Shown here in pieces: positions 1 through 51,192 of a stretch of 51,192 bases of DNA. The DNA lies in contig JAJRZV010000024.1 in assembly GCA_024275095.1 (NCBI GenBank), positions 1 to 51,192 on the forward strand. Direction: 5' to 3'. How positions within the stretch are numbered: position 1 is the stretch's first letter; every line of letters starts with the position of its first letter. The translations under genes were made by a program, and so were the position numbers. This DNA is from a bacterium (lineage in GTDB: Bacteria > JAJRZV01). Under the pieces are notes generated by a model. It saw only the letters and a program-made list of their open reading frames with translations, made no database searches and was not told the origin of the DNA.

Positions 1-2
1 GG

Positions 3-26015: not shown

Positions 26016-26016
26016 A

Positions 26017-28449: not shown

Positions 28450-28516
28450 CTCCTGCACTTTCTGCATAACCCGAAAACAGTCGGGCTCAACACGTTCGAA
28501 GTTGTACGGATTCAGG

Positions 28517-28744
28517 CTACGAATCCCGCGCAAGTACCCTGCGGGCGACACCAGCGTACTCTTCTGGCACTAAGAGACGAATGTTTGAAAAACCACCCGG
28601 CGCCGAGGGAATCAGACTGCAAATACTCTCATCGAACAGGAAAGCGTGAATGCCCTCTTCTTTCAATTTCCCTGCTGCCATGTGAGCTTCCAGTAAATTC
28701 TTGAATGTGGCAATTGTTACAAGTTTGTCTCTCATGGTATTCAT
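28517..28744 (-). CDS. DUF2007 (PII-uridylyltransferase-associated-like) small protein
   Basis: A 75-residue protein with the DUF2007 pattern: LVTIATFKNLLEAHMAAGKL, EGIHAFLFDE, IRLLVPEEYAGVARRVLA. AAGGA is 4 bases before ATG 28744. DUF2007 is a small ferredoxin-like alpha/beta domain of unknown function. It lies alone, antisense, inside the glycan cluster between the GH94-like and DUF2961 genes. Confidence 0.8.
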   Translation of the reverse strand: MNTMRDKLVTIATFKNLLEAHMAAGKLKEEGIHAFLFDESICSLIPSAPGGFSNIRLLVPEEYAGVARRVLARDS

Positions 28745-28873
28745 GTTATCCTTGAAATATCTGTTTCACAATACAAGAGCTGTTGTGTCCGAGCCTCTCA
28801 GCTTTTCCCGTTTAAGCAGGCCTGGAAAAGGGAAAGGATTTAAGGTTAAAACTTGCAAGTGTAGAGACATTTC

Positions 28874-28930
28874 ATGAAAAGGACAACACGCATAGTATTT
28901 GGAACAGTCCTATTCATACTGGTAAAATAA
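28874..28930 (+). other. Mini-ORF upstream of the DUF2961 gene
   Basis: An 18-codon frame from ATG 28874 (MKRTTRIVFGTVLFILVK) ends 5 bases before the GTG start of the DUF2961 gene. It resembles the start of a signal peptide: positive charges and a hydrophobic run. It may be a leader, or the original start of the downstream gene cut off by a frameshift. No ribosome-binding site stands out. Confidence 0.25.
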
Positions 28931-28935
28931 CCGCG

Positions 28936-30429: not shown

Positions 30430-30442
30430 AGGTCACGAAATA

Positions 30443-33247: not shown

Positions 33248-33279
33248 ATCCAGAAACAAAAATAAAGCGAGGTAACGTA

Positions 33280-35729: not shown

Positions 35730-38700
35730 CTATCTAATCATACTGATGGTGTTATCATTGTAATTGGTCACGTAAACCGTTCTATACGTATCGTCACGAA
35801 CGGTCACATCGAATGGACCACCACCACCGCTGATGAGCCACCTCACCGTGTTGGTCGCGATATCAATCACGCCCACCTCGTCGTTGTTTCCATCGGTCAC
35901 AAGGGCGTACATACCGTCAGGCGTAATGGCCACGTTTTCAAGCCACGCCCAGAATGAAAAACCCGCTATGGTCTCGGTGTTGGTATTCGTGGCAGTATCT
36001 ATCACCTCAACCGTATCGGTGTTCGTACATCCCACGTAGAGGCTCGAGCCGTCGGGGGTAATGGCTATGCCCCTCGGACCGCAGCCCGGTAAGGCCACGT
36101 TTGCAGTGACCGACCCTGTCGTGAGGTCAACAACGTCCACGCTGTTGTTATTGTTACACGTGACGTATGCCGTGCTGCTATCAGTTGCAGCAGCAACGTA
36201 GTACGGTCCACAACCTGCGCTGAGAGCAACGGTGGTATAGGTGAGGGTCTGGGCATCAATGACATAGAGGTTATCATCCGCGTTGCCGGCCACGCACACC
36301 GTCAGGCCATCGGGAGTAACCGCAACCCCCGCGGGAGAAGCGCCGGTAACCGGTATGGACGCCGTCTGGGCGAGATTCAGGGGATCTGAAATATCAATGA
36401 CCCTCACGGTGGAGTCCCCGTCAGAGGTCACGTACGCCGTGAGACCCGAAGGGTGAACCGCCACATCCCACAACGTCACGCTTGCTCCGGGCACAAGCAC
36501 AACGTCGAGAGGCGAAAGGGAGTCAGCATCGTAGGAGAAGAACAGGTTGTTATCCTTCGCGACAAACAGGGTGTCCCCGTAAACGGCTATCCCTTTCGGG
36601 TTACCGCCACCAGGAATGCTTGCGGAGGTGTCAACAACGCTCGGTTCCCCGATAAACGTGCCAGTGAAAGGCTCGGGATTGCTTATCACACCGCATGCCA
36701 CTTCCATGGGATCCTGCGAAAATGGATTGCCGACCACATCCTGAAGACCGGACGTTACAGTCACGTTATAGGTATGACCCCATATAAGTCTGGAGTTCGG
36801 GGTCAGCTGAAGAATGGATTTGTCTCCCAGTGCACTGATTGTAAATGTCACAGATGATGGGACCGTCGCATCTTCCATCTTTATCGTTGAGCCAGCAACG
36901 GCAGTACCCGTGTTGACGGGCTTAGAAAATGTAATAATATAAGACCCGTCCGTGAGCAAATCACCCTCAAGCGGAGGATCTACAGCGTAAACAGTGAGTG
37001 TTGTGTCGGTATAAAGTGAATACTCACCGTTGAGATACCTGAACACGTAAACCCTTCCACCGGGTACAAGACCCTTGACCGCCGTATTGAACGATGCTTC
37101 CACACCGGTGGCACTGTCTTTCTGAACACCAATGGACGCCTCCTGCGCTGAACCATAATCCCCCATGAACGGTGAATTCATGTACTGAAATTTAATATCG
37201 CCACTGCTTTCGTAAAAGTTCACCTGGAAGTCGAAAGTTTCAGATAAAGATGCATTGTCAGTAAAGTTTATCCACTCGATAGTGAATACCCTGTTGGGAG
37301 CAGTACCAGTCACCTTGTAGTAAACCTGTCCGGTAATACCTGCATTGAGGTCATCAAAAAATGGAGCCACCATGTAATCGGGGTTGGAAGGGTCCGGAAT
37401 GGGATTGTTTTCAAAGTCCGCCCGTAACAGCTCCGTAAAAGAGAGCCATCCGTTGGATGTAACATTGATGGTCTGTCCTTCAGGAAAAACCACGCCGAAA
37501 AACTTCACATCCATTGGTAGGGTCAACAACTTACCGGCATCATCGTCATTCACGGCAAACCCAAGAGAGGTCCCACCTGATGATGCATCCTCAGGACAAA
37601 AGGTAAGATCGGCCAGATTGCCACTGAGCAGATAAGTGTAAGCATTCCTGTATATGGCCACTCCATTGGAGTTGCTCACTTTGAGATCCACAGTGCCCGG
37701 TGTTTCGCTGGCGGGAGTAAGAGCCACGATGGTTGTACTGTCAACCACGGTAAAGTCCGTAACCTGTGCTGTTCCAAGGAAAATCGTGGTATCAGGTGTT
37801 GTTGTGAAACCGTAACCCTTAATGGTAATCCATTCGCCGCCCAGGATACTCCCTGAGTCCGGGGTTACCAGTGTGATGGCCACCGTTGAATCGCTAACGA
37901 CAATCTGGTGTGACGTGGTATTTTCAAGAGTGGAACCATCAGAAAGGCGAGCAGTTACTGTGAGGGTCACGGTGTATGTACCCCTGGTGGTATACGTGTG
38001 TGTAACAACCTCACCGGTGGCAGTAACCGAATCACCAAAATCAAACACGTAGGATATGATTGTGCCGCTGCCAGAGGTAGAACAGGAGGCATCAAAAAAC
38101 ACGGCTTCGTTGGTTGAAGCTGTGGTGGGACCGGTAAAACACGCAACGGGTGGATCACTCACCGATGCCAGGGAAGCAATGGATATCAGTCTGCTGACAG
38201 TGTTGGTAGCGCCGTCATCATCTGTAACAGTAAGGGTTACAATATAATCCCCTTCAGTGGTATAGGTGTGTGAAACACCGGATATGGTGCCTTCCACGGG
38301 GGGAGTGCCATCTCCAAAATCATACGAATACTTGACCACGCGCCCATCAGGGTCATACGATGCAGAGGCATCAAATGCTACGGGCTCGCTTGTGACTCCA
38401 GAGGAAGGAGAGCTGAGCGCAGCCACCGGTGGAACATTATCTGCAATGCTTATCTGTTTCGAAATACTTGATGTGGCACCATCATCGTCTGTTACCGTGA
38501 GGGTGATGACGTAGTTTCCTGCCTGCGTGTACGCGTGAGATGCAGCAGCCACCACGCCGGTGACAGGGGACGTTCCGTCTCCAAAATCATACGAATATTT
38601 AACCACGCGCCCATCAGGATCATATGACGCAGATGCATCAAATGACACAGGCTCGCCTATTGCGCCGGACGAAGGAGAGCTGAGCACAGCCACCGGTGGA

Positions 38701-39038
38701 ACGTTATCTGCAATGCTTATCTGTTTCGAAATACTTGATGTGGCACCATCATCGTCTGTTACCGTGAGGGTGACCGTATAAATTCCTGCACTCGAATACG
38801 CATGTACCGCGGAAAACACGTCGCTGGCGCTTGAACCGTCACCGAAATCAAAACTGCAAGCTGCAACAATACCGTCAAGGTCCGTTGAGCCGGAGCAATC
38901 AAACACCAAGGCTTCATTTATGCGACCGCTTGAAGGACCATCCAGAACCGCGATTGGAGGGCGATTTTTCGGACCTCCACATGAACATACGGCCGCAACC
39001 ACAAAAAATACAATCCATTTACTCCTTTCACTCAACAT
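35730..39038 (-). CDS. Surface lipoprotein with PKD, IPT/TIG and YVTN beta-propeller domains
   Basis: A 1102-residue lipoprotein: signal peptide with lipobox VCSC (C20), four PKD domains (about residues 26-390; FDFGDGSSASDVF and SYDFGDGTSPV are typical), an IPT/TIG domain (about 391-470; GGEWITIKGYGF), a beta domain around NVTSNGWLSFTELLRADFEN to FYESSGDIKFQYM (about 475-665), a bacterial-Ig/SbsA-like domain (about 690-785) and a seven-bladed beta-propeller of YVTN type (about 810-1102; GVAVTPDGLTVCVAGNADDN, GIAITPDGSSLYVGCTNTD). Two PKD repeats are 89 residues apart and nearly identical in DNA. GAGGAGG precedes ATG. Probably a surface or adhesion protein, translated after the outer-membrane barrel gene. 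Confidence 0.88.
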   Translation of the reverse strand: MLSERSKWIVFFVVAAVCSCGGPKNRPPIAVLDGPSSGRINEALVFDCSGSTDLDGIVAACSFDFGDGSSASDVFSAVHAYSSAGIYTVTLTVTDDDGATSSISKQISIADNVPPVAVLSSPSSGAIGEPVSFDASASYDPDGRVVKYSYDFGDGTSPVTGVVAAASHAYTQAGNYVITLTVTDDDGATSSISKQISIADNVPPVAALSSPSSGVTSEPVAFDASASYDPDGRVVKYSYDFGDGTPPVEGTISGVSHTYTTEGDYIVTLTVTDDDGATNTVSRLISIASLASVSDPPVACFTGPTTASTNEAVFFDASCSTSGSGTIISYVFDFGDSVTATGEVVTHTYTTRGTYTVTLTVTARLSDGSTLENTTSHQIVVSDSTVAITLVTPDSGSILGGEWITIKGYGFTTTPDTTIFLGTAQVTDFTVVDSTTIVALTPASETPGTVDLKVSNSNGVAIYRNAYTYLLSGNLADLTFCPEDASSGGTSLGFAVNDDDAGKLLTLPMDVKFFGVVFPEGQTINVTSNGWLSFTELLRADFENNPIPDPSNPDYMVAPFFDDLNAGITGQVYYKVTGTAPNRVFTIEWINFTDNASLSETFDFQVNFYESSGDIKFQYMNSPFMGDYGSAQEASIGVQKDSATGVEASFNTAVKGLVPGGRVYVFRYLNGEYSLYTDTTLTVYAVDPPLEGDLLTDGSYIITFSKPVNTGTAVAGSTIKMEDATVPSSVTFTISALGDKSILQLTPNSRLIWGHTYNVTVTSGLQDVVGNPFSQDPMEVACGVISNPEPFTGTFIGEPSVVDTSASIPGGGNPKGIAVYGDTLFVAKDNNLFFSYDADSLSPLDVVLVPGASVTLWDVAVHPSGLTAYVTSDGDSTVRVIDISDPLNLAQTASIPVTGASPAGVAVTPDGLTVCVAGNADDNLYVIDAQTLTYTTVALSAGCGPYYVAAATDSSTAYVTCNNNNSVDVVDLTTGSVTANVALPGCGPRGIAITPDGSSLYVGCTNTDTVEVIDTATNTNTETIAGFSFWAWLENVAITPDGMYALVTDGNNDEVGVIDIATNTVRWLISGGGGPFDVTVRDDTYRTVYVTNYNDNTISMIR
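38404..38772. repeat. Tandem PKD-coding repeat, 267-bp period
   Basis: The stretch 38404-38505 recurs at 38671-38772 with about two differences in 102 bases, and neighbouring bases (38311 on vs 38578 on) also match at the same 267-base offset, equal to 89 codons. Third-position identity shows recent duplication or gene conversion within the PKD array. Confidence 0.85.
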
Positions 39039-39802: not shown

Positions 39803-41098
39803 TCACCGATTAAACATGTTGTTAACCGAATGGTATATTTCAATCAATCTTTCATCCGGAACATGACACCATGAACGAGGTGTATCTGTAAATACAAGAC
39901 GGTGCCATTCGACTGCTCTGTTTCGAACTTCATCAGCCACAAGGGCAAACAATTCACTGCCGGGACGGGGTTGACACAAACTCCATGAACAGGCATCAAG
40001 CTCAAGTTCCTGAGCAAGCCGAACAGTTTGCCAGATATCATCTTCGGTTTCGCCTGGAATACCTATCATGAAAAAGCCAGCCACTTTTACGTAGTCTTTC
40101 AAAATCTTAACAGCCCTTGCTATCTGTTCAACTGTGATACCTTTCTTCAAAACCTTCAGGCTTTTATCCGTACCAGTCTCAATCCCGAGGTCCACTTGTA
40201 CAAGTCCCCGCTGGACAAGCATTTCGATTTCGTCTTTCCTTACCAAGTCAACCCTCGTGTTCATCTGCCATTTCAAGCCAGGAGCAAGATTATTCAGTTC
40301 GCTTGAAAACTCTTCTATCCATTTTCTATTGAGATTGAGAATGCTGTCCTTAAACCACACACCTTCAAGATTATATCTTTCGACCAGCGAGGCAATTTCC
40401 TCTGCAGCTCTGTGGGGTTCCATTGCTCGCCAGCGTTTGCCCATGGTCGAATGCACGGCACAGAACGAACAATGGTACGGGCAACCCCGCGTTACCATCA
40501 CGGGAAGGGCTCTCAGTTTTCGAAGCTGTCCGGTGTAAGAAATATAGTTTTCCGCCGGAAGGAGCGAATACTCCGGGAAGGGTATTTCACGATTATTCAA
40601 CAACTTCCTTATGAAAATCACTCCCCGTGGTTCAGTTCCCTGCTTCAGTTCGGAAACAAGCCTGAGAAATCCCTTTTCACCCTCACCCGTAACAACCGCG
40701 TCTGCTCCGGTTTCTTCATACACCTCATGTGGAAACACAGTTGGATGAACACCTCCCATGACCAGAAAAATGCGCGGGTATCTTTTCTTAATTTCCCTGG
40801 CAATTGAAAGACCAGAGGGATAGTTAGGAGTGAGACACGATATGCCCACTATCCTGGGAGCTGAGTCATCCACCCTTTCAAGCACATCTTTCCTGGTCAA
40901 CATTTCGCCCGTACCGTCGACAATTTCCACGTCAAGATGGTTATCCTTCAGCACTCGGGCTATTGAGGCGATCCCCAGAGGCGGCTCAAAAGGTTTGATG
41001 TACATGTTACCTGCGCGGATCCAGTGCGCGTAGCGAACTTCTCTCTCTTTCAGGTCTGCAGGTTCGAGTAGTGGGGGATTAATAAGCATTATTTTCAT
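39803..41098 (-). CDS. B12-binding-domain radical SAM protein
   Basis: A 431-residue protein: an N-terminal cobalamin-binding-like Rossmann domain (about 1-145; VGISCLTPNYPSGLSIAREI, GGVHPTVFPHEV, VVTGEGEKG) and a radical SAM core with the [4Fe-4S] motif C206-x3-C210-x2-C213 (RGCPYHCSFC), then a TIM-barrel with NTRVDLV, GIETGTD, GFFMIGIPGETEDD. Members of this family (DUF4070/B12-rSAM) methylate or rearrange lipids, cofactors or peptides. No DxHxxG cobalamin motif is visible, so B12 binding is uncertain. ATG overlaps the methyltransferase stop by 4 bases; it ends the redox operon. Confidence 0.88.
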   Translation of the reverse strand: MKIMLINPPLLEPADLKEREVRYAHWIRAGNMYIKPFEPPLGIASIARVLKDNHLDVEIVDGTGEMLTRKDVLERVDDSAPRIVGISCLTPNYPSGLSIAREIKKRYPRIFLVMGGVHPTVFPHEVYEETGADAVVTGEGEKGFLRLVSELKQGTEPRGVIFIRKLLNNREIPFPEYSLLPAENYISYTGQLRKLRALPVMVTRGCPYHCSFCAVHSTMGKRWRAMEPHRAAEEIASLVERYNLEGVWFKDSILNLNRKWIEEFSSELNNLAPGLKWQMNTRVDLVRKDEIEMLVQRGLVQVDLGIETGTDKSLKVLKKGITVEQIARAVKILKDYVKVAGFFMIGIPGETEDDIWQTVRLAQELELDACSWSLCQPRPGSELFALVADEVRNRAVEWHRLVFTDTPRSWCHVPDERLIEIYHSVNNMFNR

Positions 41099-41772
41099 GA
41101 AGGTTTCCTGGCAACAAATACAGTAAACATATTTTTTAAACCGATGTTGCGTGTATATCGGGTATGCTCCAGTTCATGATGGTGCATGTAAAGAATTTCA
41201 AGATCTTTCAAAAGGTTCTCCAGTTCCTCGTCGGTGAAAAAGTGATAGATGGTACCTCTTATATCGCTGATGGTTGTTACCTGGTATGTATTGGATTGCA
41301 CCGGTTCTTCACGAGACTTCAACAATAAAGCAAGGGCATTATCAACATTGCGGACACTCGCAACAAACACCCCACCGGGCCGAAGTACGCGGTAAATCTC
41401 AAAAAATGTTCCTTGAATCTTCGAAATGTTCCCCAGATGAAGTACACGCCAGGCAAGAACAATATCAAATAAAGCGTCAGGAAAAGGAAGGTGCTCCATG
41501 TCTCCCCTCACAAGAGGCGCAACCACATGTGCACGGCGTGACACAAGTAAAGCCCGATGTGAAATATCCAATCCCAGAACGCTGATGCTGAATCGTTTCA
41601 GTATTTCGATATGCCTGCCTGTGCCACACCCCACGTCAAGAGCATTTTTCTGTCCCGTCGGCACGTAACGCAAAAGCAAATCTTCAACAAGAGGGTCAGG
41701 AACCTGAATATCATACCCCCCTTCATTAAATACACGGTCCCACGCATTGCCGTGTGTTTTATCGCATGTCAA
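41095..41772 (-). CDS. Class I SAM-dependent methyltransferase
   Basis: A 225-residue Methyltransf_11-type enzyme. Motif I is LDVGCGTGRHIEIL, the acidic loop VLGLDISHRAL, motif II-like FDIVLAWRVLHL, and YRVLRPGGVFVASV. The start is TTG 41772, 8 bases after GGGG of the upstream gene end; no good ATG exists nearby. Sandwiched between the HdrD-like gene and the radical SAM gene with tight spacing, so probably modifies a cofactor, quinone or lipid of this redox system (inference). Confidence 0.85.
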   Translation of the reverse strand: MTCDKTHGNAWDRVFNEGGYDIQVPDPLVEDLLLRYVPTGQKNALDVGCGTGRHIEILKRFSISVLGLDISHRALLVSRRAHVVAPLVRGDMEHLPFPDALFDIVLAWRVLHLGNISKIQGTFFEIYRVLRPGGVFVASVRNVDNALALLLKSREEPVQSNTYQVTTISDIRGTIYHFFTDEELENLLKDLEILYMHHHELEHTRYTRNIGLKNMFTVFVARKPS

Positions 41773-41777
41773 AATCT

Positions 41778-43010
41778 TTACCCCATTGCGGAAATGACAA
41801 TTTCAGTAATATCCCTCATGATCAGCGAGGAATTTTTAGCAGCAATAGCATCTTTCAGGCTCTGGTAGCAAAACGGACAGGCAGTTACAAATTCTGAAGC
41901 TCCTGTTTTTTCCGCATCCTCAACCAGTCTGCGAGACATGCTCACCTGAATTTCAGTGAATCCCGCCTTGAGCCCTCCACCCGCTCCACAACACCGGGAG
42001 TAAATGCCCGAACGTTCCATCTCGAGAAGTTTAAGGCCGGGGACGCTTTTTAGTATCTCACGGGGCTCGTTGAAAAGCCCGTTGTGTCTCCCGAGGTGAC
42101 ACGGATCATGGTAGGTAACCGCAAGATCAACTTCACGAGAGAGACTCAGTTTTCCCTTTACTATCAGTTGATAAATAAACTCCGTCATATGATACACGCG
42201 GAATGGAAATTGGGAATATTTGGGATAGTCCTGCCTGAGGGTTTTAAAACAGCCCGAACAGGAGGTCACGATGATTTCTGCTTCCAGCGAAAGGAATTTT
42301 TCAACGTTCTTTCTCACCTGTTGCAGGAACACATCCTTCACACCCATACGCAGGGGTGTACTGCCGCAACAGTATTCCTCAGGCCCCAGGATTCCATAGT
42401 CAATACCTACACGGTTCATTATTTCTGCAAAATTGATGGCAACCTCGCGGATGTTCTGGTCATAAGAAGCCGTACACCCAACAAAGTAAAGAATTTCAGC
42501 TTTATTTTTACCGCGGGAGAGGTCCTTTACAGGCGCGGACAGGCGCCTCTCCCTGTAGGCTCTGTCTGCCCACCTGCGTCGTGCAGACCGCGGCTGCATC
42601 CACGGATTGTCATAGTTTTTTATACTTTGAACAAGTGGATGCTGTGCCTCAAGAGGTCCATATCCGGCATTAACAAAAATTTCTCTTATCTCCTCCCATA
42701 GCTCAATAGTGTCAATTCGGGAAGGACACACAAACGAGCACTGACCACAAACCGAACACCTGTAGAGCGCATCACGAAGGAAATAAATGTCCTTCTCCTG
42801 GATACGCCTGCCGAAAATGGAAAGGAACGGGTTTGTACCTGCCCGGATGGCTTTCTTTATAAGGTAGATTTTGTAAAAAGGGGGCACCTCCCGTGCACTG
42901 GTTTCAGCATATACGGGACACATCTCCACACACGTACCACATCGTGCACATGCAGACAGGTCAATCCGTCTCTTGAGGGGCAGATTGTGGAACGCGAGAC
43001 CACCGGCCAT
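41778..43010 (-). CDS. HdrD/DsrK-like Fe-S protein with two CCG domains
   Basis: A 410-residue protein of the heterodisulfide-reductase subunit D family. Two ferredoxin motifs: C21-x2-C24-x2-C27-x3-C31-P and C85-x2-C88-x2-C91-x3-C95-P. Two full CCG motifs (C-x34-CC-x35-C-x2-C): C179, C214-C215, C251, C254 and C304, C340-C341, C378, C381, each able to hold a noncubane [4Fe-4S] cluster or other site. GGGAGG precedes ATG 43010. It overlaps the NarI-like gene by 50 bases, giving a DsrMK/HmeCD-like membrane pair that would reduce or oxidise quinone. The partner order differs from fused EMO. Confidence 0.92.
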   Translation of the reverse strand: MAGGLAFHNLPLKRRIDLSACARCGTCVEMCPVYAETSAREVPPFYKIYLIKKAIRAGTNPFLSIFGRRIQEKDIYFLRDALYRCSVCGQCSFVCPSRIDTIELWEEIREIFVNAGYGPLEAQHPLVQSIKNYDNPWMQPRSARRRWADRAYRERRLSAPVKDLSRGKNKAEILYFVGCTASYDQNIREVAINFAEIMNRVGIDYGILGPEEYCCGSTPLRMGVKDVFLQQVRKNVEKFLSLEAEIIVTSCSGCFKTLRQDYPKYSQFPFRVYHMTEFIYQLIVKGKLSLSREVDLAVTYHDPCHLGRHNGLFNEPREILKSVPGLKLLEMERSGIYSRCCGAGGGLKAGFTEIQVSMSRRLVEDAEKTGASEFVTACPFCYQSLKDAIAAKNSSLIMRDITEIVISAMG

Positions 43011-43704
43011 AAATATCCTCCCTTGACCCTTTCTCCAGAAGAGTCAACAATAGATTTAGAGGAACAGTGAACATGTGAACAAGTTTCGTGAAGGGAATCA
43101 GCACCACCACAGTAACAATCAGCGCAATGTGAAGAAAGAAAACATGGCTGTAATGTACGGCAGTCCAGTTGATAAAAACCCCGGGCACAACATGCGCAAT
43201 GATGCCACCTTTCGTATACGCGTATTTCACACCGGCAAGAAGTATTCCTGTAACGGCTATTGCAAAAATTAGAAATGTGGATGTGAGATCTTCATAAAGT
43301 GCAGGAGATACGTGTCGACCAAAGGTAAAAAAACGACGGGCTAACAGAAGAAGAGAAGACACAACTAAACCTGCAGCCATTATATCGTGGATGAGAATAG
43401 CTGAATCTCCCCCTGTAACGACACCAGCAAAAGAGGGAACAAAGTAATACACTACAAAAAAAACAAAGCACACCGTCATAATAAAATGTGCTGCCCACCT
43501 GAAAAGGCTGTAACGAGCGATATTCCATTGAAGCACGACTTCTCCAACAACAACCTTCACAGTGCTCTTTACAGACGGGCGGTTCACGTGCATACCCGGG
43601 TCTTTCACAGTGACCAGCAAAGTAATGGCGTACACAGCGTACAGGGCCAGTAAGCCTGTACATACCCAGAATATCATTGTTTTTATGTCAGATACCTGCA
43701 GCAT
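42961..43704 (-). CDS. NarI/DsrM/HdrE-like cytochrome b membrane subunit
   Basis: A 247-residue integral membrane protein from ATG 43704 (a longer frame to 43809 would run antisense to nothing but deep into the upstream gene). Five transmembrane helices: about 9-32, 69-90, 101-123, 142-160 and 182-210. Candidate heme ligands are H73, H106, H184, H187 and H192, the last three in VHYSHVFFLH; NarI/DsrM families use helix His for b-type hemes. Such subunits exchange electrons with menaquinone. The 3' end overlaps the HdrD/DsrK-like gene by 50 bases. The start overlaps the BPL_N gene by 17 bases and has no clear ribosome-binding site. Confidence 0.85.
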   Translation of the reverse strand: MLQVSDIKTMIFWVCTGLLALYAVYAITLLVTVKDPGMHVNRPSVKSTVKVVVGEVVLQWNIARYSLFRWAAHFIMTVCFVFFVVYYFVPSFAGVVTGGDSAILIHDIMAAGLVVSSLLLLARRFFTFGRHVSPALYEDLTSTFLIFAIAVTGILLAGVKYAYTKGGIIAHVVPGVFINWTAVHYSHVFFLHIALIVTVVVLIPFTKLVHMFTVPLNLLLTLLEKGSREDIYGRWSRVPQSAPQETD

Positions 43705-44884
43705 TTTCAGAAGACAGGTCTCTTTTTTCGGTTCGCATTGCCCGAAAATGCCAGTTGAACACGTGTGAAGCGCAGGAGTTGAGGCTGGACAACAGTGTTC
43801 CTGCTTCAAGCTCTCCCGACTTCACATGAGAAAGAGACTCTTCCAGTAAGGTCCTTACCTCTTCTACTTCCTCGGGAAGTGCAATAGCATTTCTCTTACG
43901 TCGCACTTTATCCCATATGGCGTTAACAAAGGTGAGGAAATGATAAGCCATCAGGTACTTTGAACCCTTCCATCCTTCGAGTCTGCGCGTTTTGCTTTCC
44001 AGAGCTATTCTCAAATTACTTGCAAGTGCTCTGATCTTGTGTATATCCAAAGCATCCACATGAGAGACTTCTTTTTCTGCTTCTGTACGCTTTCCTTCGC
44101 AAACGAGAAGTTTTCCCAGGATTAGATTGGCTTCTTCATATTCAGGATGCTCAATATGAGGACCAAACGCGTAAATTTTTAAGTCCTTGTGTGCAGCTCT
44201 CACTGCTGCAGCTCGACCTGTATAAATTTCATCCGCAAACTCCCTGTCCACAAGGAATTCCGTTTTGTCTGTAAAACCGCAATAGCGTGCAATCACCTCG
44301 ACTTCCTCGGTCTCTTCCATTACAGGTCCGCCGTAAATGGGTGCTGTAATTATGCCTTTGGATACAAACGGGAAATTCTTCACCACGTGTATCTCAATCT
44401 CTCCCCTCACCGGATGAAATACATACCTGCATCCGTATGGCTGGGCGAACTTCTCCTTCATGCGAACAGGTTCGGGAATGACCTCGCGCAGATTGGCTAT
44501 AGGAGCACGGATAAAATTGAAAAGGTTCAAAGGTTCCTTTGACGAACGAAGAACGAGGTATCCTCCAGCGCATGTACCAATATAAAGTCCTCCTGACCTT
44601 ATAAAACTGCGAAGGGCGGTTGCACCTTCATGTCCCAGGCTTTCTGCTATGGCAAAGGTGTCACCTCCGGATACCACACATGCTCCGGCACCGGAAAGCA
44701 CATCAAACGTCAAAGAAGCCGAAAAAACAACCCTTTTCCACCCGAGAGCCTCAAGTGTCTCACCCACCCAAAGCCACGAGTGAGACGTGCCTTCTCCGGT
44801 ATATACCACAACCCAGGACTCTTCTTCCGGAAAGGTGTGAATAAATCGGCGCAGTGCTGCTCTGGACTTTATTTCAGGGAGCAT
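43688..44884 (-). CDS. BPL_N-type glutamine-amidotransferase-like protein
   Basis: A 398-residue protein. Its first half is a DJ-1/class I amidotransferase-like fold of the BPL_N family (biotin-protein-ligase N-terminal domain): VVSGGDTFAIAESL and YIGTCAGGYLVL, where C105 is the nucleophile-elbow Cys. It continues with FHPVRGEIEIHVVKNFPFV and ITAPIYGGPVM, then a helical C-terminal half (ALDIHKIRALASNLRIALES, KYLMAYHFLTFVNAIWDKVR) I do not recognise. ATG 44884 lies inside the end of the AOR-like gene, with AAGG 8 bases away. Role in a redox operon is unclear: amidase, cofactor processing or regulation. Confidence 0.75.
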   Translation of the reverse strand: MLPEIKSRAALRRFIHTFPEEESWVVVYTGEGTSHSWLWVGETLEALGWKRVVFSASLTFDVLSGAGACVVSGGDTFAIAESLGHEGATALRSFIRSGGLYIGTCAGGYLVLRSSKEPLNLFNFIRAPIANLREVIPEPVRMKEKFAQPYGCRYVFHPVRGEIEIHVVKNFPFVSKGIITAPIYGGPVMEETEEVEVIARYCGFTDKTEFLVDREFADEIYTGRAAAVRAAHKDLKIYAFGPHIEHPEYEEANLILGKLLVCEGKRTEAEKEVSHVDALDIHKIRALASNLRIALESKTRRLEGWKGSKYLMAYHFLTFVNAIWDKVRRKRNAIALPEEVEEVRTLLEESLSHVKSGELEAGTLLSSLNSCASHVFNWHFRAMRTEKRDLSSENAAGI

Positions 44885-46106
44885 CCAGAAACACCTTGGC
44901 TGTACTGTGTACCTGCTCTTCAAATGCCCCATAATCATACTTAATGCTTCCGAACACAGGTGAAAGATTTACGGAGAACACACCTGTAAAAATCGGGCAG
45001 ACCCCCGCAGAAAGAGAAAAAACGTAGCGCTTTACAGCATCCTCCAGACAATCCCCGGGTGGCAGAGTAAGACTTGCTCTGCATTTTTTCACGAAGTTTT
45101 TAAACCATCCAGGAACATCCTGCCATATCTCCTCCACCACGGTGGAAAGTTCCTTTCCGTGATAAAGTGCCTCAAGAGGATGTGTGCCTGTCCGGACGGC
45201 ATTCCACATGGTTTCAATAACATCCGACCCGCCTGTGACCAGTGCAAGAGTCTGAAAAGGATCGCTCAACAAAAAACCCGGTTCATCAATCTCGGATTCC
45301 TTCAGGCGTGATGGTTCATCTTTCACCATGAGAAAACTCTGACACGGATATGGACAGTTAAAGCATGCAGAATACCTGTGCACACGTTCTTTTATTTTTT
45401 CCAGCGGGCCTGTGTCTGCACCTGAAAGCTCCAGGACTCTCCCCATGCCTTTACATTCTTCACTCACCGCTGACCTGCGCAGCTCCACGCATGCACTGAA
45501 AAAATCTTCATCCGCTTCAAAAGACTCCATTCCCCTCAGGGCTACCGCCTGAACATTCAGGTTGTCCAGCATATCACCGGCACCGCAAATGTCACCGCTG
45601 TACCAGTAATCAACCATCAGGGGTTTCAACCCTCCTTCCTTGCCGTAAGAGATAACCTGGATGTTCTCATCCGCATGTTCGCCTCTTACACTGTCAACAA
45701 GAGTCCACACACTCTCGGTATTCAATGCACTGGCAGGAAGGACTTCACATATACCATCGTGTATCCAGAGGTAAACCCTCTCGCTGCTTTTACCTTTGAG
45801 AACCACTGCGTCAAATCCTGAATATTTAAGTTCCGCGCCCGTGTGCCACAACAAATGAGTAACAACCGGTCCTGTTGCCTCATTCAGCCATACCAGCGTT
45901 GAAGCACACGAGGCAGGTACGAATGTCCCTGTGAAAAGACCGGCAGCGAATGCTGCGGTGCCACCGGTGTCTTCCAGAAGGTGAAGAGCAAGCAGGGGAC
46001 CGCCCGGCGCTTTCTCCAGTACTTCACTGCTGAGTTCACGTTCATCTATCTCTCCGTTTTCCAGATTTACAACCACATATCGTTCGTTGAAAAAACGCCC
46101 CTTCAT
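44874..46106 (-). CDS. Short aldehyde:ferredoxin oxidoreductase-like protein
   Basis: A 410-residue member of the AOR (tungstopterin) family, about 200 residues shorter than usual. The N-terminal domain is present (RYVVVNLENGEIDEREL, GGPLLALHLLEDT, LKYSGFDAVVLKGKSSERVY), with ELK-SGFDAVVLKG matching AOR-domain-1 text. Fe-S ligands are conserved: C248, C251, C255 (CFNCPYPC) and a fourth C370 (SAGVC, family DxLGxC). About 100 residues between them are missing compared with Pyrococcus AOR, part of the pterin domain. It might therefore lack the cofactor. Start ATG 46106 follows GGAGG; upstream frames overlap the ferredoxin gene, which ends at 46103. Confidence 0.8.
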   Translation of the reverse strand: MKGRFFNERYVVVNLENGEIDERELSSEVLEKAPGGPLLALHLLEDTGGTAAFAAGLFTGTFVPASCASTLVWLNEATGPVVTHLLWHTGAELKYSGFDAVVLKGKSSERVYLWIHDGICEVLPASALNTESVWTLVDSVRGEHADENIQVISYGKEGGLKPLMVDYWYSGDICGAGDMLDNLNVQAVALRGMESFEADEDFFSACVELRRSAVSEECKGMGRVLELSGADTGPLEKIKERVHRYSACFNCPYPCQSFLMVKDEPSRLKESEIDEPGFLLSDPFQTLALVTGGSDVIETMWNAVRTGTHPLEALYHGKELSTVVEEIWQDVPGWFKNFVKKCRASLTLPPGDCLEDAVKRYVFSLSAGVCPIFTGVFSVNLSPVFGSIKYDYGAFEEQVHSTAKVFLDAP

Positions 46107-46453
46107 GAAGCACCTCCTTCCTCTACCAGGCATCCCGAAGGACAAACAGCAACGCAAAAAAGAAAATCCTCACCTTCACACAGGTCGCACGCCTCCCTCA
46201 TAACAATCGGCTTTGATGAAGCACCGGCACCCTCCGCCTTTTCTCCGGGCAAAAGCACCTCTGCGCCTTCAGGTCTGCCGAGAAACACTTCTTTTTCTCG
46301 CTTGATCATCACTCCAAAATAGTCCTTCTTCTCATTGCGGTGGAGCATTATGCTTGAAGACACAGGGTTCATCTCGCGATCGCGGTGAAAAGAACAGGCA
46401 ATTTCACAGATACGGCATCCTGTACATTTGTGTGTAATCACCTCCAGCTTCAC
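46103..46453 (-). CDS. 4Fe-4S ferredoxin-like electron carrier
   Basis: A 116-residue protein with GTG start at 46453, 6 bases after GGGAGG and overlapping the upstream stop by 4 bases. Two Fe-S motifs: CTGCRICEIAC near the N-terminus (C-x2-C-x2-C-x3-C) and CDLCEGEDFLFCVAVCP near the C-terminus (C-x2-C-x6-C-x3-C-P). Between them a linker has REKEVFLGRPEGAEVLLPGE. AOR-type enzymes commonly have such a neighbour (BamC or the Aor small subunit). It would shuttle electrons between the AOR-like protein and the HdrD-like protein. Confidence 0.88.
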   Translation of the reverse strand: MKLEVITHKCTGCRICEIACSFHRDREMNPVSSSIMLHRNEKKDYFGVMIKREKEVFLGRPEGAEVLLPGEKAEGAGASSKPIVMREACDLCEGEDFLFCVAVCPSGCLVEEGGAS

Positions 46454-47679
46454 GACACACCTCCCACCGAGTCCCACAGGAGCTTCACCAGGTCAACTAC
46501 AGGGAGCTCGAGGCCTTCTCTCTTTACACCGTCACTGATATTCTGCTCACAAAACGGGCACGCAGTCACAATCATTTCAGCGCCTGTGGACGCTGCTTCT
46601 TTTGCTCTCAATCCTGCCGTGGCCACAGCCACCTCGGTAAAGGCCGTGCGTACACCCCCACCGGCCCCACAGCACAGTGAATACTCACGGTTCCGTGGCA
46701 TCTCCACCAACTCCACTCCAGGAATGTTTTGCAAAATCTGCCGTGGTGCATCAAAAACGCCGAAATAGCGCCCGAGATGGCACGGGTCATGATAGGTCAC
46801 TTTGGACGGAATTTCTTTTTTATGTTCCAGACCTTTATCCTGTGCAACCTCGTCCATGAACTCTACGATGTGCCTCACCTCCGCCCGGAGGTGTTCCTGG
46901 TAGAAATGTTTGAACGTTGAATAACAGCCGGCACAGGCAGTAACCACATATCGAGCACCTGTATTGTTCAGCTGTTCCGCCACTTCGTCACGTCTTTTAA
47001 CGAAGGACTTCATGTCACCAACCCTCATCACCGTGGAACCACAACATCTCTCCTTTTCTCCAAGAATTCCAAAATTTACTCCTGCACCGTGAAGAAGGCG
47101 TGCCGTAGAAAACACAACGTCTCTGAAAGCAGGATCATAAGACCCTGTGCACCCTACAAAATAAAGCACTTCCACCTTTTCCTTGCTTGCATCTTTTATT
47201 TCCACATCTTTCAATCGTTTTGCCCAGCGCCCCCTCTGGGACCTGGGGCTCATCCAGGGATTATCGTAGTTCTCAATGCTTTTAATAAGCGGCCGATGCT
47301 CTGGCAGAGGAGCCAGACCTTTTTCCACCAGATAAACCCTGAGCGCCATAAAAGCATTGGTGGGCTCCAGTCCCTTCATCTCGCTGCATATAACCTGACA
47401 ATTGCCGCATGCCGTACAGGTATAAAGAATCTCGAGGAATTTCTCGTCAATTACCAGTTCAGGAGGGTCACACGTGATCGCCCTGATAAGTTCCATTCGG
47501 CCGGTGCTGAAGTAAGCATCAAAACGAAAATACGTTGCAGCAGGACAATTATCTGCGAAACGGTAGTTTGTAAGAATTTCCGGACGTGTCATACCACACA
47601 GTTTGCACTTTACGCATTTCCAGGCAGTATTGCGATATTCAAATAAATGTCCAAACTTCCCAATCTGTGCATACTGCAT
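46450..47679 (-). CDS. HdrD-like Fe-S protein with two CCG domains (BamD-like)
   Basis: A 409-residue paralogue of the HdrD protein at 41778-43010. The first N-terminal cluster site is altered: C22, C25, C28, then the fourth Cys 17 residues on (C45-P; FADNCPAATYF), a form I recall from BamD-like proteins. The second ferredoxin motif is normal: C88, C91, C94, C98. CCG motifs: C177, C212-C213, C249, C252 and C300, C336-C337, C374, C377. GGAGG lies 5 bases before ATG 47679. It is followed by ferredoxin and AOR-like genes, an arrangement like bamD-bamC-bamB of class II benzoyl-CoA reductases. No bamE/HdrA is present here. Confidence 0.92.
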   Translation of the reverse strand: MQYAQIGKFGHLFEYRNTAWKCVKCKLCGMTRPEILTNYRFADNCPAATYFRFDAYFSTGRMELIRAITCDPPELVIDEKFLEILYTCTACGNCQVICSEMKGLEPTNAFMALRVYLVEKGLAPLPEHRPLIKSIENYDNPWMSPRSQRGRWAKRLKDVEIKDASKEKVEVLYFVGCTGSYDPAFRDVVFSTARLLHGAGVNFGILGEKERCCGSTVMRVGDMKSFVKRRDEVAEQLNNTGARYVVTACAGCYSTFKHFYQEHLRAEVRHIVEFMDEVAQDKGLEHKKEIPSKVTYHDPCHLGRYFGVFDAPRQILQNIPGVELVEMPRNREYSLCCGAGGGVRTAFTEVAVATAGLRAKEAASTGAEMIVTACPFCEQNISDGVKREGLELPVVDLVKLLWDSVGGVS

Positions 47680-47754
47680 CACCACCTCCTGTCTAAAATT
47701 TATCTTTCAACAGGCATCCAGGAGTAGAAATGTCAAATGTTGAGACCAGACCCC

Positions 47755-49329
47755 TCATTGCTCGTCCAGAGGATTAACACCGGGGTGTGAGATATACAGC
47801 TCATCCACCACGGCTTTGAACCTTTTTGCCAGTTCCCAGTAAACCTGTGCTCTCGGCATCTCGATTTCTCCAAAGCCGTACATGCGGCGATACATCGTGG
47901 CCTTAAACTTTTCCACAAACATTTCAGTGGTTTTTTTCAACATGACCGCTGCCCTCTTAATATCCTCAGGATTGCCCTGGTCCCACCAGTAATCAAACTC
48001 CAGCGGTGCCAGGCGTGCAAACGGATACGGACCCTGTACAGCCGTGCCTGTGAGCGCCATCTTCTCGGAAAAGTCAGGGGCTGAATCCTTCCAGTACCGG
48101 TGGATAAGCCTGCGGTAATATTCATGCACTAACGGAATCAAATCCATTTTCACATTGCCAGCAGTCCAGTTGAAAGACCCTCTCCACTTCATGGCTGCAC
48201 CCACGCGTGGACCCACAAGTTTCCAGTAGCGCGGATCAAACAAAGGTTCATCAGTGAACAGAAGCGCCTGCTGGTCCACGGCGTACATCCCTGTGGATTC
48301 TGCTATGTTCATGAGAATCTCTTCCTTTATCGCAAGTTCCTCTTCATCGTGGCCTGAGATAATCACAATGACCGGGTCGGAAGGAAGGTAATCTGCAAGG
48401 TCCAGGGGATTATCCACAGGTGCCGCCACAGCCATCTGTCCATGGTGTGATTTATATATGAATTCTGCAATCTCTTCCCTTGATAATCTCAAATCGAACT
48501 CCAGTGCACTTTCAAGAGCCCTTTCGCGGTCATCTGCGTCAAAAATGTAAAGCTTTTCCACCGGATATTCCGGCACAATCCGGATGGTCATCTCCGTGCA
48601 CACACCCATCCCCCCATCTGCCGCCACGAATATGCCCATGATATCCACCAAAGGATGCCAGTTGAGAGGTAACCTCTCTGCTCCTTCTGCATGCACACCG
48701 AGTCTGAGGACCTGGCCATCAGGCAGCACCCAGGTCATTCCCGCGATCAGCTCGCTGGAGAGACCGTATCGGATGGCGATACCAGGCCCCCCGCGTGCCA
48801 CATAATTGGCGAGAGTGGAAATGCTCCCCATGGTTAAAGGCAGGCACGCACGGAGTTTCACGCCGTCATGTGCCAGATGCTCGTTAACAGCGAGGTACAC
48901 CTCAGCATTGCGCGCCCCGGGACCAATGGTGCACGTCATACGTTCTGCATCCACCTCAATTTTGTTCATGCGTTTGAGGTCAAGAAGAATGCCGCCCCAT
49001 CTGGGAAGGGTCAATCCTCCGTGATTGAAACCGGTCGAATAAGGAATAAATGGAATATTGCGTCTGTGGGCGATTTTCACTATCTCCACCACCTCTTCGG
49101 TAGAGGCCGGCATGACGACAATGTTGGGAGCTTTCCCCGGCGTTGGGGTGAAATCACGACTGTAAGTAATGGTTACCGCACGGTGGTCAGTAGCCCATCT
49201 CTCCCCAACCACGTCCCTGATTTCTTTGAGGGCCTCGCGCAAATTCTCTTTGGAAAGATCCCACCTCACCGGGGGCTGTTCCCGGAGTTTTTTCTCTATC
49301 TCTTTCAAGGCTTCACCTCCCTTTTTCAT
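47755..49329 (-). CDS. FAD-linked oxidase (VAO/PCMH/GlcD-like)
   Basis: A 524-residue flavoprotein of the vanillyl-alcohol-oxidase/PCMH superfamily. FAD site: NIVVMPASTEEVVEIVKIAH, PFIPYSTGFNHGG, GGILLDLKRMNKI, AERMTCTIGPGARNAEVYLA, and a PP-domain-like region through GLSSELIAGMTWVLPDG. The STG-N-GG and ILLDLKRMNKI segments read like p-cresol methylhydroxylase. The C-terminal half is the substrate domain; no covalent-FAD His/Tyr is obvious. ATG overlaps the preceding flavoprotein gene stop by 4 bases. Feeds electrons to the Fe-S neighbours (inference); substrate unknown, possibly an alcohol, lactate or phenolic. Confidence 0.87.
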   Translation of the reverse strand: MKKGGEALKEIEKKLREQPPVRWDLSKENLREALKEIRDVVGERWATDHRAVTITYSRDFTPTPGKAPNIVVMPASTEEVVEIVKIAHRRNIPFIPYSTGFNHGGLTLPRWGGILLDLKRMNKIEVDAERMTCTIGPGARNAEVYLAVNEHLAHDGVKLRACLPLTMGSISTLANYVARGGPGIAIRYGLSSELIAGMTWVLPDGQVLRLGVHAEGAERLPLNWHPLVDIMGIFVAADGGMGVCTEMTIRIVPEYPVEKLYIFDADDRERALESALEFDLRLSREEIAEFIYKSHHGQMAVAAPVDNPLDLADYLPSDPVIVIISGHDEEELAIKEEILMNIAESTGMYAVDQQALLFTDEPLFDPRYWKLVGPRVGAAMKWRGSFNWTAGNVKMDLIPLVHEYYRRLIHRYWKDSAPDFSEKMALTGTAVQGPYPFARLAPLEFDYWWDQGNPEDIKRAAVMLKKTTEMFVEKFKATMYRRMYGFGEIEMPRAQVYWELAKRFKAVVDELYISHPGVNPLDEQ

Positions 49330-50594
49330 ACGCTATAGCAGGGATTCAGGATCCCCGCCGGATCGGTAATCCTTTTTACCTGATTTAAAAACTTTCTTTC
49401 TGTTGACGAATAAAATCGTGATGCATCCAGGGGCGGGACGCCTGGAAAAGCCCACTCCAGCTTTGTACATATATTGCGTATACGCGAGCTCCACAGGCCT
49501 TCACACCACACAACAAGCACAAAAGCACCACCTCTCGAAAAAGAAGAAACCACATACCGGGGCGTTTTACCCATCTCATCTTCCACGGCTCCGGCAGCTG
49601 ATACCACCTTATTCCGGAAATCCGGATACGAACCGTAAATCACGGCCGTGCTTCCTGATGAAAAAATACTGCGTCGTGTCCACATTTCATCCTCAATGGT
49701 GACCACACGCTCCGCTCCCCACTTGAGCATCATCTTCTCAACGCGCCTGATGTTATAATTCACCAATTTCTCCCGCCCGGCATATCCAAGTACAACAAAT
49801 GTCAACCCTTTATCGAGACCGGCTCCCGTCAGCTCTTCAAGTGATTTCGCATCTCCCGTAAAGCATTCCACTGTCAACTCATGCCTCGGAACATTGCGTA
49901 AAACTTCACCGGCAACTTTTAAATCCCGCACCTTCCATACCTCGCCCTTTCTCACCTCCCACCGCGGGTAAAGATACACGGAGGACCTCACCATCACCCC
50001 CATGATGTCCGGTGCTCCGAAATACCAGCGGGAAAGGTTTGGGCCAGGGTCATCACGACAATCACCCGCTTCTTCAGAGAGAGCATGCTGGCCCGTGCGA
50101 TGTATCAATCCTTCTGGAAGGGCCACATACATGTTGGAAATATTAAGGTCACCGTACCTGGCGCACTCCCGCACAGGATGGCGCATGGCATAACACTCGC
50201 TGATACTTGCTGTCGGTGTCACAAGAGGCATGAATACATCAACGCCTTCTGCACGAGCTGCTTCCACCACCTCCTTGAAATGAACTCCACGACCAACATG
50301 GGCGATGAGATTTCGTGCATCCAACCGATCTATTGCTGCCAGTCTCGAGAACTCAAATATCACGCTGCCGGAGTAATCCAGCACAGGATCAAAATACCGT
50401 TCATATGTTGTAAAAACCTTTACACTGCTGTAATTGCATATTTTCAGTACTGCAGCAGCTTCTTCATATGAACCCGGTCTTACAGCACACACCGGTAAAG
50501 AGGCGGGTTGTTCAGGGAAGTATTCATCCACATCTTCTACCACTCCATCTTTACCCAGTTCTCTCTCCAGCAATTCTTTTATTTTTTCACCCAC
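49326..50594 (-). CDS. FAD-binding-oxidase-like protein with atypical FAD loop
   Basis: A 422-residue protein with the FAD_binding_4/GlcD framework: AVRPGSYEEAAAVLKICN, EFSRLAAID, IAHVGRGVHFKEVVEAARAE and ending DPAGILNPCYSV (GlcD C-terminal DP-GILNP). The usual glycine-rich PP loop (P-x-G-G-G-T) is replaced by TTYERYFDPVLDYSGS, and no GG-S/T is visible. It may bind FAD weakly or serve as a structural partner for the full-length flavoprotein encoded next. GTG 50594 follows GGAGG by 6 bases. GlcE-like role in a GlcDEF-type arrangement is one possibility (inference). Confidence 0.78.
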   Translation of the reverse strand: MGEKIKELLERELGKDGVVEDVDEYFPEQPASLPVCAVRPGSYEEAAAVLKICNYSSVKVFTTYERYFDPVLDYSGSVIFEFSRLAAIDRLDARNLIAHVGRGVHFKEVVEAARAEGVDVFMPLVTPTASISECYAMRHPVRECARYGDLNISNMYVALPEGLIHRTGQHALSEEAGDCRDDPGPNLSRWYFGAPDIMGVMVRSSVYLYPRWEVRKGEVWKVRDLKVAGEVLRNVPRHELTVECFTGDAKSLEELTGAGLDKGLTFVVLGYAGREKLVNYNIRRVEKMMLKWGAERVVTIEDEMWTRRSIFSSGSTAVIYGSYPDFRNKVVSAAGAVEDEMGKTPRYVVSSFSRGGAFVLVVWCEGLWSSRIRNICTKLEWAFPGVPPLDASRFYSSTERKFLNQVKRITDPAGILNPCYSV

Positions 50595-50615
50595 AGCCGA
50601 CCTCCTTCCTGGTAT

Positions 50616-51192
50616 TCAAATAAACACCTCTATCAGTACCGCACACATGTAGATAACCAGACCCACAGGAACAGCCAAACGAATAAATTTTTCACGCTCA
50701 CGTGCTGATGAATTCACAGCCGCCAGGATTTCGGCATAGAAAAAGAAAAATGCAGCCGCCCCAAGCCACAATATAATGGCAGGCAGCAGAGGCAATAACT
50801 TAAGAGAAAGATAAACGCCGAGAAAATACCACTCGGGTTTCACCACTGCAGGAGGACGAGAGGGGTCGGGTGGAACTCCCGAGTCCACCGGGAAGGCAAA
50901 GGTAAACACGTTGAGAACAACAAGAATAAAAAGCACTATTACAAGGACATCTATCGCATGGTCGGGCCAGAAAGGGTGGCTTTCTTCATCACTTTTCAGC
51001 GGCGTGGAGCCTGTTGCTCGTATGCTTGCGATGTGGAGTGCACCCAGTACGCCGAGAGCTCCAGGTATAATCCACGCGTGAAGCGTAAAAAACCGCTGGT
51101 TGAGTGGCAGACCCCCAGCATCTGTGAAAGCAGATTTGATAATTTTACCCACCAGGGGTACCTGTGAGGCAATATTGAGGCCCACAACAGAA
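50616..51192 (-). CDS. Cytochrome b (b6-type), 3' part; continues past window
   Basis: The C-terminal part of a cytochrome b with the frame open to the right edge (SVVGLNIASQVPLVG and on). FFTLHAWIIPGALGVLGALH gives heme ligands H-x14-H, the b6-type spacing (mitochondrial b has x13), preceded by LNQRFF. Then the subunit-IV-like part: PAVVKPEWYFL (PEWY quinol-site motif), EWYFLGVYLSLKLLP and later helices, all in one chain, so b6 and subunit IV are fused. About 20 bases separate its stop from the FAD gene. Rieske and cytochrome c partners, if any, lie beyond the edge. Oxidises menaquinol. Confidence 0.92.
   Translation of the reverse strand, partial: SVVGLNIASQVPLVGKIIKSAFTDAGGLPLNQRFFTLHAWIIPGALGVLGALHIASIRATGSTPLKSDEESHPFWPDHAIDVLVIVLFILVVLNVFTFAFPVDSGVPPDPSRPPAVVKPEWYFLGVYLSLKLLPLLPAIILWLGAAAFFFFYAEILAAVNSSAREREKFIRLAVPVGLVIYMCAVLIEVFI

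Follow-up and report, generated by a model that had tools for sequence, protein, structure and literature searches.

Background

CCG iron-sulfur proteins hold central positions in the energy metabolism of anaerobes. In EtfD (EMO), an ETF:menaquinone oxidoreductase in which an HdrD-like CCG protein is fused to a NarI-like membrane domain, electrons run from ETF through the CCG clusters and two cubanes to one b heme and on to menaquinone, forming an electron wire (PMC13083937). The mycobacterial protein has lost the Cys-Cys pair of one CCG domain, which carries a linear [3Fe-4S] cluster (PMC13083937). CCG proteins also adjoin NarI-like b-cytochromes in HdrDE, DsrMK, HmeCD and TmcBC, and accompany flavoproteins in glycolate oxidase (GlcDEF). 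Tungsten oxidoreductases of the aldehyde ferredoxin oxidoreductase family (WOR/AOR), which include BamB of benzoyl-CoA reductase, are recognised by a large subunit (WorL) that must have both AFOR_N and AFOR_C domains (PMC13328260). Here we describe an operon on bacterial contig JAJRZV010000024.1 (C120; 51,192 bases, analysed in its entirety and called the window below) in which relatives of all these proteins stand beside a Rieske/cytochrome b complex. The host genome (G000; 2.45 Mb, 97%-complete) shares only the domain with the 58 nearest comparison genomes.

The least familiar core of this operon, made up of a ferredoxin, a pterin-less AOR derivative, a BPL_N protein and a CCG protein of HdrD2 type, often with a NarI-like cytochrome, may constitute one undescribed redox system of bacteria and archaea. 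An AOR scaffold would be re-used without the tungsten cofactor and a glutaminase-type enzyme would serve a membrane CCG complex, and the window would hold the fullest version, in which the system is linked with its dehydrogenase and with a cytochrome bc complex. We place this proposal slightly short of an even chance; that the ferredoxin/short AOR/BPL_N/HdrD2 core is a distinct system has a realistic chance. Every single fold is already known and the partner set is a variant of membrane CCG-protein systems. The open-access literature gave no description of this partner set, and nothing relevant on BPL_N with heterodisulfide reductase, on COG4285 or on AOR with CCG and Rieske proteins. If the proposal is true, a partner set tracking CCG proteins across two domains of life would point to a step so far unrecognised, be it a new carrier, maturation reaction or electron entry point, and annotators would do well to treat one class of 'aldehyde ferredoxin oxidoreductases' as probably not aldehyde-oxidising. 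Desulfosarcina cetonica is a cultured carrier; thus, the system is open to testing.

Results and discussion

A 15-gene operon on one strand

A minus-strand gene run extends from the contig end to 39803 and contributes 11 genes to a real bacterial respiratory operon of 15 genes, all on one strand. Nine of them fall within 41778-51192, the methyltransferase and B12 radical SAM genes lie beyond, and four more are upstream on contig C127. In 5' to 3' order, the genes in the window are:

50616..51192, minus strand: cytochrome b (b6/petD-like), C-terminal 191 amino acids (aa), truncated 5' by the edge of the contig (PF13631 45.8 bits, PF00032 21.5 bits; PEWY motif)
49326..50594, minus strand: FAD1, FAD_binding_4 flavoprotein, 422 aa, a weak, GlcE-like partner (PF01565 27.1 bits against a cut-off of 26.4)
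47755..49329, minus strand: FAD2, VAO/PCMH-type flavoprotein, 524 aa, candidate substrate dehydrogenase (PF01565 87.8 bits, whole profile covered)
46450..47685, minus strand: HdrD1, CCG iron-sulfur protein, 411 aa, of the FAD-HdrD-FAD ortholog group (PF02754 118.9 bits; tree group)
46103..46477, minus strand: ferredoxin with two Fer4 sites, likely GTG start about 46453, preceded by a Shine-Dalgarno (SD) sequence (PF12838/PF13187)
44874..46157, minus strand: short AOR-like protein, AFOR_N only, likely ATG start about 46106 giving about 410 aa (PF02730 75.8 bits, no AFOR_C)
43688..44938, minus strand: BPL_N, class-I glutamine-amidotransferase-fold protein with a C-terminal helical domain (PF09825 35.8 bits)
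42961..43809, minus strand: NarI/DsrM-like membrane b-cytochrome, probably starting at one of several ATGs near 43704-43677 (PF02665 23.9 bits; cytob_DsrM 25.6 bits)
41778..43010, minus strand: HdrD2, CCG iron-sulfur protein, 410 aa, of the BPL_N-NarI-HdrD2 ortholog group (PF02754 122.5 bits; separate tree group)
41095..41772, minus strand: class-I S-adenosylmethionine (SAM) methyltransferase, penultimate operon gene (PF08241 76 bits)
39803..41098, minus strand: B12-binding radical SAM protein, last operon gene (best NCBIfam matches under curated cut-offs; BchE 163/481 bits)

Intergenic gaps are no longer than 75 bases through the radical SAM gene, after which 128 bases follow; the methyltransferase gene comes after a gap of 5 bases and the radical SAM gene overlaps it by 4. 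Promoter-like and terminator-like sites within the operon are at chance level (not above shuffles), and the best promoter-like site (11/12), a strong one, lies past the last operon gene at 39772-39744. A sequence-only reading of this DNA had already proposed one operon, read in one direction, and was right in this. All the parts that it named are present: cytochrome b (as the C-terminal half), the flavoproteins (both with FAD_binding_4), the pair of CCG proteins, the ferredoxin (with two clusters), the AOR-like protein (with AFOR_N) and the NarI-like protein. It missed BPL_N (43688-44938), the CrtI-like flavoprotein upstream and the split of the HdrD proteins between ortholog groups. It also gave overlaps of 4 to 50 bases: SD-preceded starts leave mostly 4-base overlaps between operon genes, including those for ferredoxin and the AOR-like protein, while some 50-base overlaps are artefacts of choosing the longest reading frame.

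The window ends in 141 bases that are identical to the first 141 bases of C127 and have no other copy in the genome. Joining the two contigs completes cytochrome b in frame to 328 aa; this assembly-graph overlap is strong evidence of adjacency, short of absolute proof. Upstream of cytochrome b on C127 are genes for a Rieske protein, an octaheme c-type cytochrome (eight CxxCH), a CrtI/carotenoid-isomerase-like flavoprotein and a TetR regulator, so that the Rieske and cytochrome c genes which the earlier reading advised seeking past 51192 are present. The ligands of cytochrome bc/b6f complexes are all there: CTHLGC/CPCH in the Rieske protein (region C77-x-H79 ... C95-x-C97-H98) and His 76, 90, 175 and 190 in axial positions, with PEWY, in the full cytochrome b. 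Rieske protein, four-histidine cytochrome b and octaheme c within one operon are also found in b6f/bc-type complexes with multiheme c; here, in contrast, the operon is shared with flavin and CCG modules.

Contig C34 of the host (L083:2013-8896), read by eye, carries a second, separate operon for Rieske protein and cytochrome b, which also encodes several multiheme cytochromes, an Fe-S protein with multiple clusters and a membrane protein resembling NrfD. In G041 (L048:1-7246), a FAD-HdrD-FAD trio stands divergently beside an operon for Rieske protein, cytochrome b, a pyridine-nucleotide-type flavoprotein and a multiheme cytochrome.

Two modules recur in bacteria and archaea

Relatives of HdrD1 led to 22 loci, and co-occurrence was counted over 386 bacterial genomes and 16 genomes reached via HdrD relatives. 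Module A (FAD/HdrD1/FAD, ferredoxin and short AOR) and module B (BPL_N, NarI-like protein and HdrD2) both recur elsewhere. The synteny that had been suggested as a check is thus real, and the neighbours do co-occur. The exact parts list, for which the sequence-only reading knew of no described complex, is unique among the loci seen, but it combines modules that can each be found without the other.

The BPL_N-NarI-HdrD2 trio is found in Thermoplasmata and related archaea, in D. cetonica and in G388-G391 (record titles Thermodesulfobacteriota, Proteobacteria and Deltaproteobacteria). In loci L129, L130 and L131 of G388-G391, ferredoxin-short AOR-HdrD1 is separate from the trio. G391 has FAD-HdrD-FAD-ferredoxin-short AOR-HdrD as a single gene run, and in G388 the last four genes of the module A run are seen, the first of them a FAD gene at the contig end. 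In D. cetonica ferredoxin-short AOR, a FAD protein and the trio lie inside about 16 kb. A small phylum (G041, G059 and G061) has ferredoxin-short AOR beside a fusion of GlcD-HdrD2 type, and BPL_N elsewhere.

Among the 386 genomes BPL_N (E<1e-15) occurs only in the host genome, G041, G059 and G061, and short AOR in exactly the same four, the only other match being a 692-aa frame, of full AOR size, in G057. The 16 further genomes are Thermodesulfobacteriota and relatives and Thermoplasmata; both genes are present in 15 and neither in one. Ten archaeal genomes of this set were found via HdrD2 of the trio itself and the bacterial ones mostly via HdrD1, so only the latter are independent of BPL_N. 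The BPL_N gene is diagnostic, and its co-occurrence with short AOR is good evidence, not final since the sample is clumped. A phylum-wide search around G023, limited to three genomes, gave no match.

In Thermoplasmata loci L132-L139, read by eye, the surroundings of short AOR are conserved: they include a gene resembling aspartate carbamoyltransferase, a DsrE-like gene in several of the loci and, where one could be detected, a ferredoxin gene accompanying short AOR. An ABC-transporter-like set follows BPL_N-NarI-HdrD2 in L140-L143; two of these loci have TetR-like genes upstream, and L143 also has radical SAM and AIR-synthase-like genes.

The short AOR-like protein lacks pterin-contact residues

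The window protein is related to solved AORs (E about 1e-14) and to BamB (1.6e-10). It has AFOR_N, with no Pfam match for domains 2-3, and is ~200 residues shorter than full-length AORs. Residues of 15 short members (391-462 aa) were compared with those of 24 full-length AORs, using the numbering of Pyrococcus furiosus AOR (PfAOR). In the PfAOR structure R76, G95, R182 and DxxGLC are the pterin contacts. R76 was found in no short member and in 23 of 24 full-length proteins, R182 in none as against 21, and G95 in three of 15 (the window protein not among them) as against all 24. None of the short members has the D of DxxGLC in the aligned position; the simple pattern DxxG[LVIM]C is itself present in just 10 of the 24.

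The ligands of a [4Fe-4S] cluster are retained in the window protein (CFNCPYPC, and GVCP with the distal Cys). CxxCxxxC is kept in 11 of the 15 short members and lost in D. cetonica, G388, G389 and G391, where the distal Cys column holds D. One archaeal relative reached 19.9 bits in the AFOR domain test, against a cut-off of 27. A predicted structure was discarded, having been built from two usable sequences only (pLDDT 37).

The AFOR_N domain, the [4Fe-4S] motif and a small ferredoxin partner are shared with WOR/AOR proteins including BamB. The window differs in length (about 410 against about 620 aa), in its reduced domains 2-3, in lacking the pterin-contact residues and in a ferredoxin with two clusters rather than three to four. 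That ferredoxin is 42-56% identical to those adjoining short AOR in other genomes. As domains 2-3, R76, R182 and the D of DxxGLC are missing, and published criteria need both AFOR domains (PMC13328260), the short AOR is probably not an aldehyde-oxidising tungsten enzyme and a tungstopterin role is unlikely.

BPL_N has a glutamine-amidotransferase fold

C123 and H261-x-E263 are invariant in an alignment of 13 BPL_N sequences and make up a Cys-His-Glu triad. An AF2 model (pLDDT 80) gave Foldseek matches to Pdx2 and to the glutamine amidotransferase (GATase) domains of GMP synthases, at TMt about 0.7. As modelled, BPL_N is a class-I GATase fold with an intact Cys nucleophile and His-x-Glu, to which the C-terminal helical domain is appended.

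HdrD1, HdrD2 and the NarI-like protein

HdrD1 has two complete C-x31-39-CC-x31-37-CxxC motifs and two CxxCxxC, and HdrD2 has two complete CCG motifs. Neither protein has lost any of its ten CCG cysteines, and each keeps two cubane sites, with Cys-Cys pairs at 214/215 and 338/339 in HdrD1 and at 214/215 and 340/341 in HdrD2. In a maximum-likelihood tree HdrD2 proteins (those in BPL_N-NarI context and the GlcD-fused form beside short AOR) are apart from HdrD1 proteins (FAD-HdrD-FAD context) and also from CCG proteins of genomes without BPL_N. With supports of 80/99 and 91/91, this is moderate evidence that the two belong to different orthologous groups. The NarI-like protein has conserved histidines H108, H227 and H245, enough, judging by sequence, for at least one b heme.

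The NarI-like/HdrD pairing is of EtfD/HdrDE type, in line with the earlier reading. The best solved-structure match of HdrD1 is EtfD (9ojn, E 6e-41), and EtfD/EMO shares with the window two CCG domains, two cubane clusters and a NarI-like membrane domain. In the window, however, NarI and HdrD are separate genes; the operon has no ETF gene (the rest of the genome was not searched for ETF); both CCG domains of HdrD1 and HdrD2 keep the full Hdr-type cysteines, with no replacement of the kind that gives EtfD its linear cluster; and the company is BPL_N, ferredoxin and short AOR. Like HdrDE, DsrMK, HmeCD and TmcBC, the locus has a NarI-like b-cytochrome adjoining a CCG protein and weak matches to DsrM and DsrK models. 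It differs in that scores are far under curated cut-offs (DsrK 98.2/400 bits, DsrM 25.6/300 bits; best CCG model TfrB 224/385), short of HdrDE/DsrMK equivalogs, with no sulfite-reduction genes or DsrJOP subunits alongside. An apparent NarI-HdrD fusion in Thermoplasmata was rejected, the 657-659 aa frames of L027 and L029 being out-of-frame extensions.

Flavoproteins resembling those of GlcDEF

Two adjacent FAD_binding_4 proteins and a CCG protein in one operon are characteristic of GlcDEF glycolate oxidase and D-lactate dehydrogenases, and are found here. The window differs in GlcD scores well short of the curated cut-off of 567.9 bits (FAD1 22.0, FAD2 75.9), in the C-terminal half of FAD2, which has no Pfam domain match, and in being joined to a second CCG module. 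FAD1 has a weak PDB match to the p-cresol methylhydroxylase flavoprotein (E 0.0011). FAD2 matches eugenol oxidase, VAO and 4-cresol dehydrogenase over about residues 25-280 only; naming a substrate by VAO homology was dropped, as these matches span only the FAD half. Published work on ketone degradation by D. cetonica was searched for a link to this gene cluster, and none was found.

The host genome has seven FAD-type and nine HdrD-type matches (two of the latter pieces of one gene) and one BPL_N. Per genome there are several FAD/HdrD dehydrogenase loci and a single BPL_N; these copy numbers would fit a membrane module that is supplied by many dehydrogenases. The host genome has two more trios of two FAD genes and one HdrD gene (L044, C86:27700-32200; L045, C132:26600-31100), one of them ordered FAD2-FAD1-HdrD, HdrD following the FAD pair as it does in the window.

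Proposed electron flow and alternatives

Taken together, the operon may encode a complete respiratory branch leading from a flavin dehydrogenase through CCG proteins and b heme to quinone, and on through a Rieske/b complex to cytochrome c; we consider this model as likely to be right as wrong. FAD1, FAD2 and HdrD1 would form a GlcDEF-like flavin dehydrogenase for an organic substrate, from which electrons would pass via FAD2 (and perhaps FAD1), HdrD1, HdrD2 and b heme to a lipid-soluble carrier, HdrD2 and the NarI-like b-cytochrome forming an EtfD/HdrDE-type membrane module that reduces it. The Rieske protein, cytochrome b and octaheme cytochrome c of the same operon would reoxidise the carrier. 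Ferredoxin and short AOR could be an extra electron-transfer, side-entry or docking unit without tungstopterin, and BPL_N a glutaminase-fold accessory or maturation factor for the HdrD2 module. The interpretation given in the sequence-only reading is partly supported: the two points without support are the AOR-like subunit as a donor of substrate electrons, given the losses described above, and menaquinone as the acceptor.

Several observations weigh against the respiratory model and the system as proposed. Neither MqnA/D nor MenD was found above cut-off in the host genome or in ten trio-bearing archaeal genomes, so that menaquinone is not supported as the carrier, which may be another quinone, a scavenged quinone or, in archaea, something else. 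The full Hdr-type CCG ligands of HdrD2 fit disulfide chemistry equally well. Only in the host genome was the cytochrome b/Rieske/c part seen to share an operon with modules A and B, BPL_N in the G041 phylum stands without NarI and HdrD2, and three of the four matches among the 386 genomes are in that one phylum.

The alternative that survives best, still unlikely, is that HdrD2-NarI-BPL_N is a membrane thiol-disulfide (heterodisulfide-like) reductase, BPL_N making or trimming a low-molecular-weight thiol by amide chemistry and the flavoproteins acting only as electron feeders. All five cysteines in both CCG domains of HdrD1 and HdrD2, including the Cys-Cys pair lost in one EtfD domain (PMC13083937), would suit it, as would the intact BPL_N triad in its class-I GATase fold and the presence of the trio in archaea without MqnA/D or MenD. 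However, the operon has no thiol-biosynthesis gene, full CCG ligands are also common in non-Hdr CCG proteins, and the Rieske/b complex that the operon also encodes argues for a quinol.

Slightly less probable is a reverse flow in which electrons from quinol or the periplasm power a demanding reduction in the cytoplasm, or a lipid or isoprenoid modification, in a biosynthetic operon involving the CrtI-like protein, the methyltransferase and the B12 radical SAM protein. The CrtI-like and TetR genes at the 5' end, the radical SAM and methyltransferase genes at the 3' end and the lack of a dehydrogenase adjoining the Thermoplasmata copies speak for this, but in other genomes the CrtI, methyltransferase and radical SAM genes lie outside the modules, octaheme cytochrome c and Rieske protein fit electron export, and the FAD-HdrD copies are numerous and GlcDF-like.

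About as improbable is a catalytic tungsten or BamB-like (benzoyl-CoA-reductase-like) AOR subunit feeding substrate electrons via ferredoxin to the HdrD proteins. The ferredoxin-AOR-HdrD1 gene order resembles BamC-B-D, and the window protein has AFOR_N homology to solved AORs and BamB and keeps CxxCxxxC and GxCP; set against this are the missing domains 2-3 (both AFOR domains being demanded of WorL; PMC13328260), the ~200 absent residues, the lost pterin contacts and the loss of cluster cysteines too in four family members. A genome-specific pile-up of unrelated redox genes, co-occurring only through a shared anaerobic lifestyle, is the least probable and already disfavoured: modules A and B are at separate loci in most genomes and the sample is small and clumped, but BPL_N and short AOR match in presence across the 386 genomes and in 15 of the 16 others, in two domains of life, and both modules cluster independently in D. 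cetonica and the window.

Other features of the window

PADLOC gave no match to defence systems. Two neighbouring genes at 5794-11120 encode proteins of 1092 and 683 aa, both very long and with TPR repeats. A carbohydrate-related run at 24768-35607 encodes DUF4855, GH94-like and DUF2961 proteins, along with a pair of large proteins in which domain matches are few or absent. At 35730-39038 is a gene for a predicted lipoprotein of 1102 aa, in which PKD-like repeats and, towards the C-terminus, a repeat region resembling a beta-propeller were read by eye.

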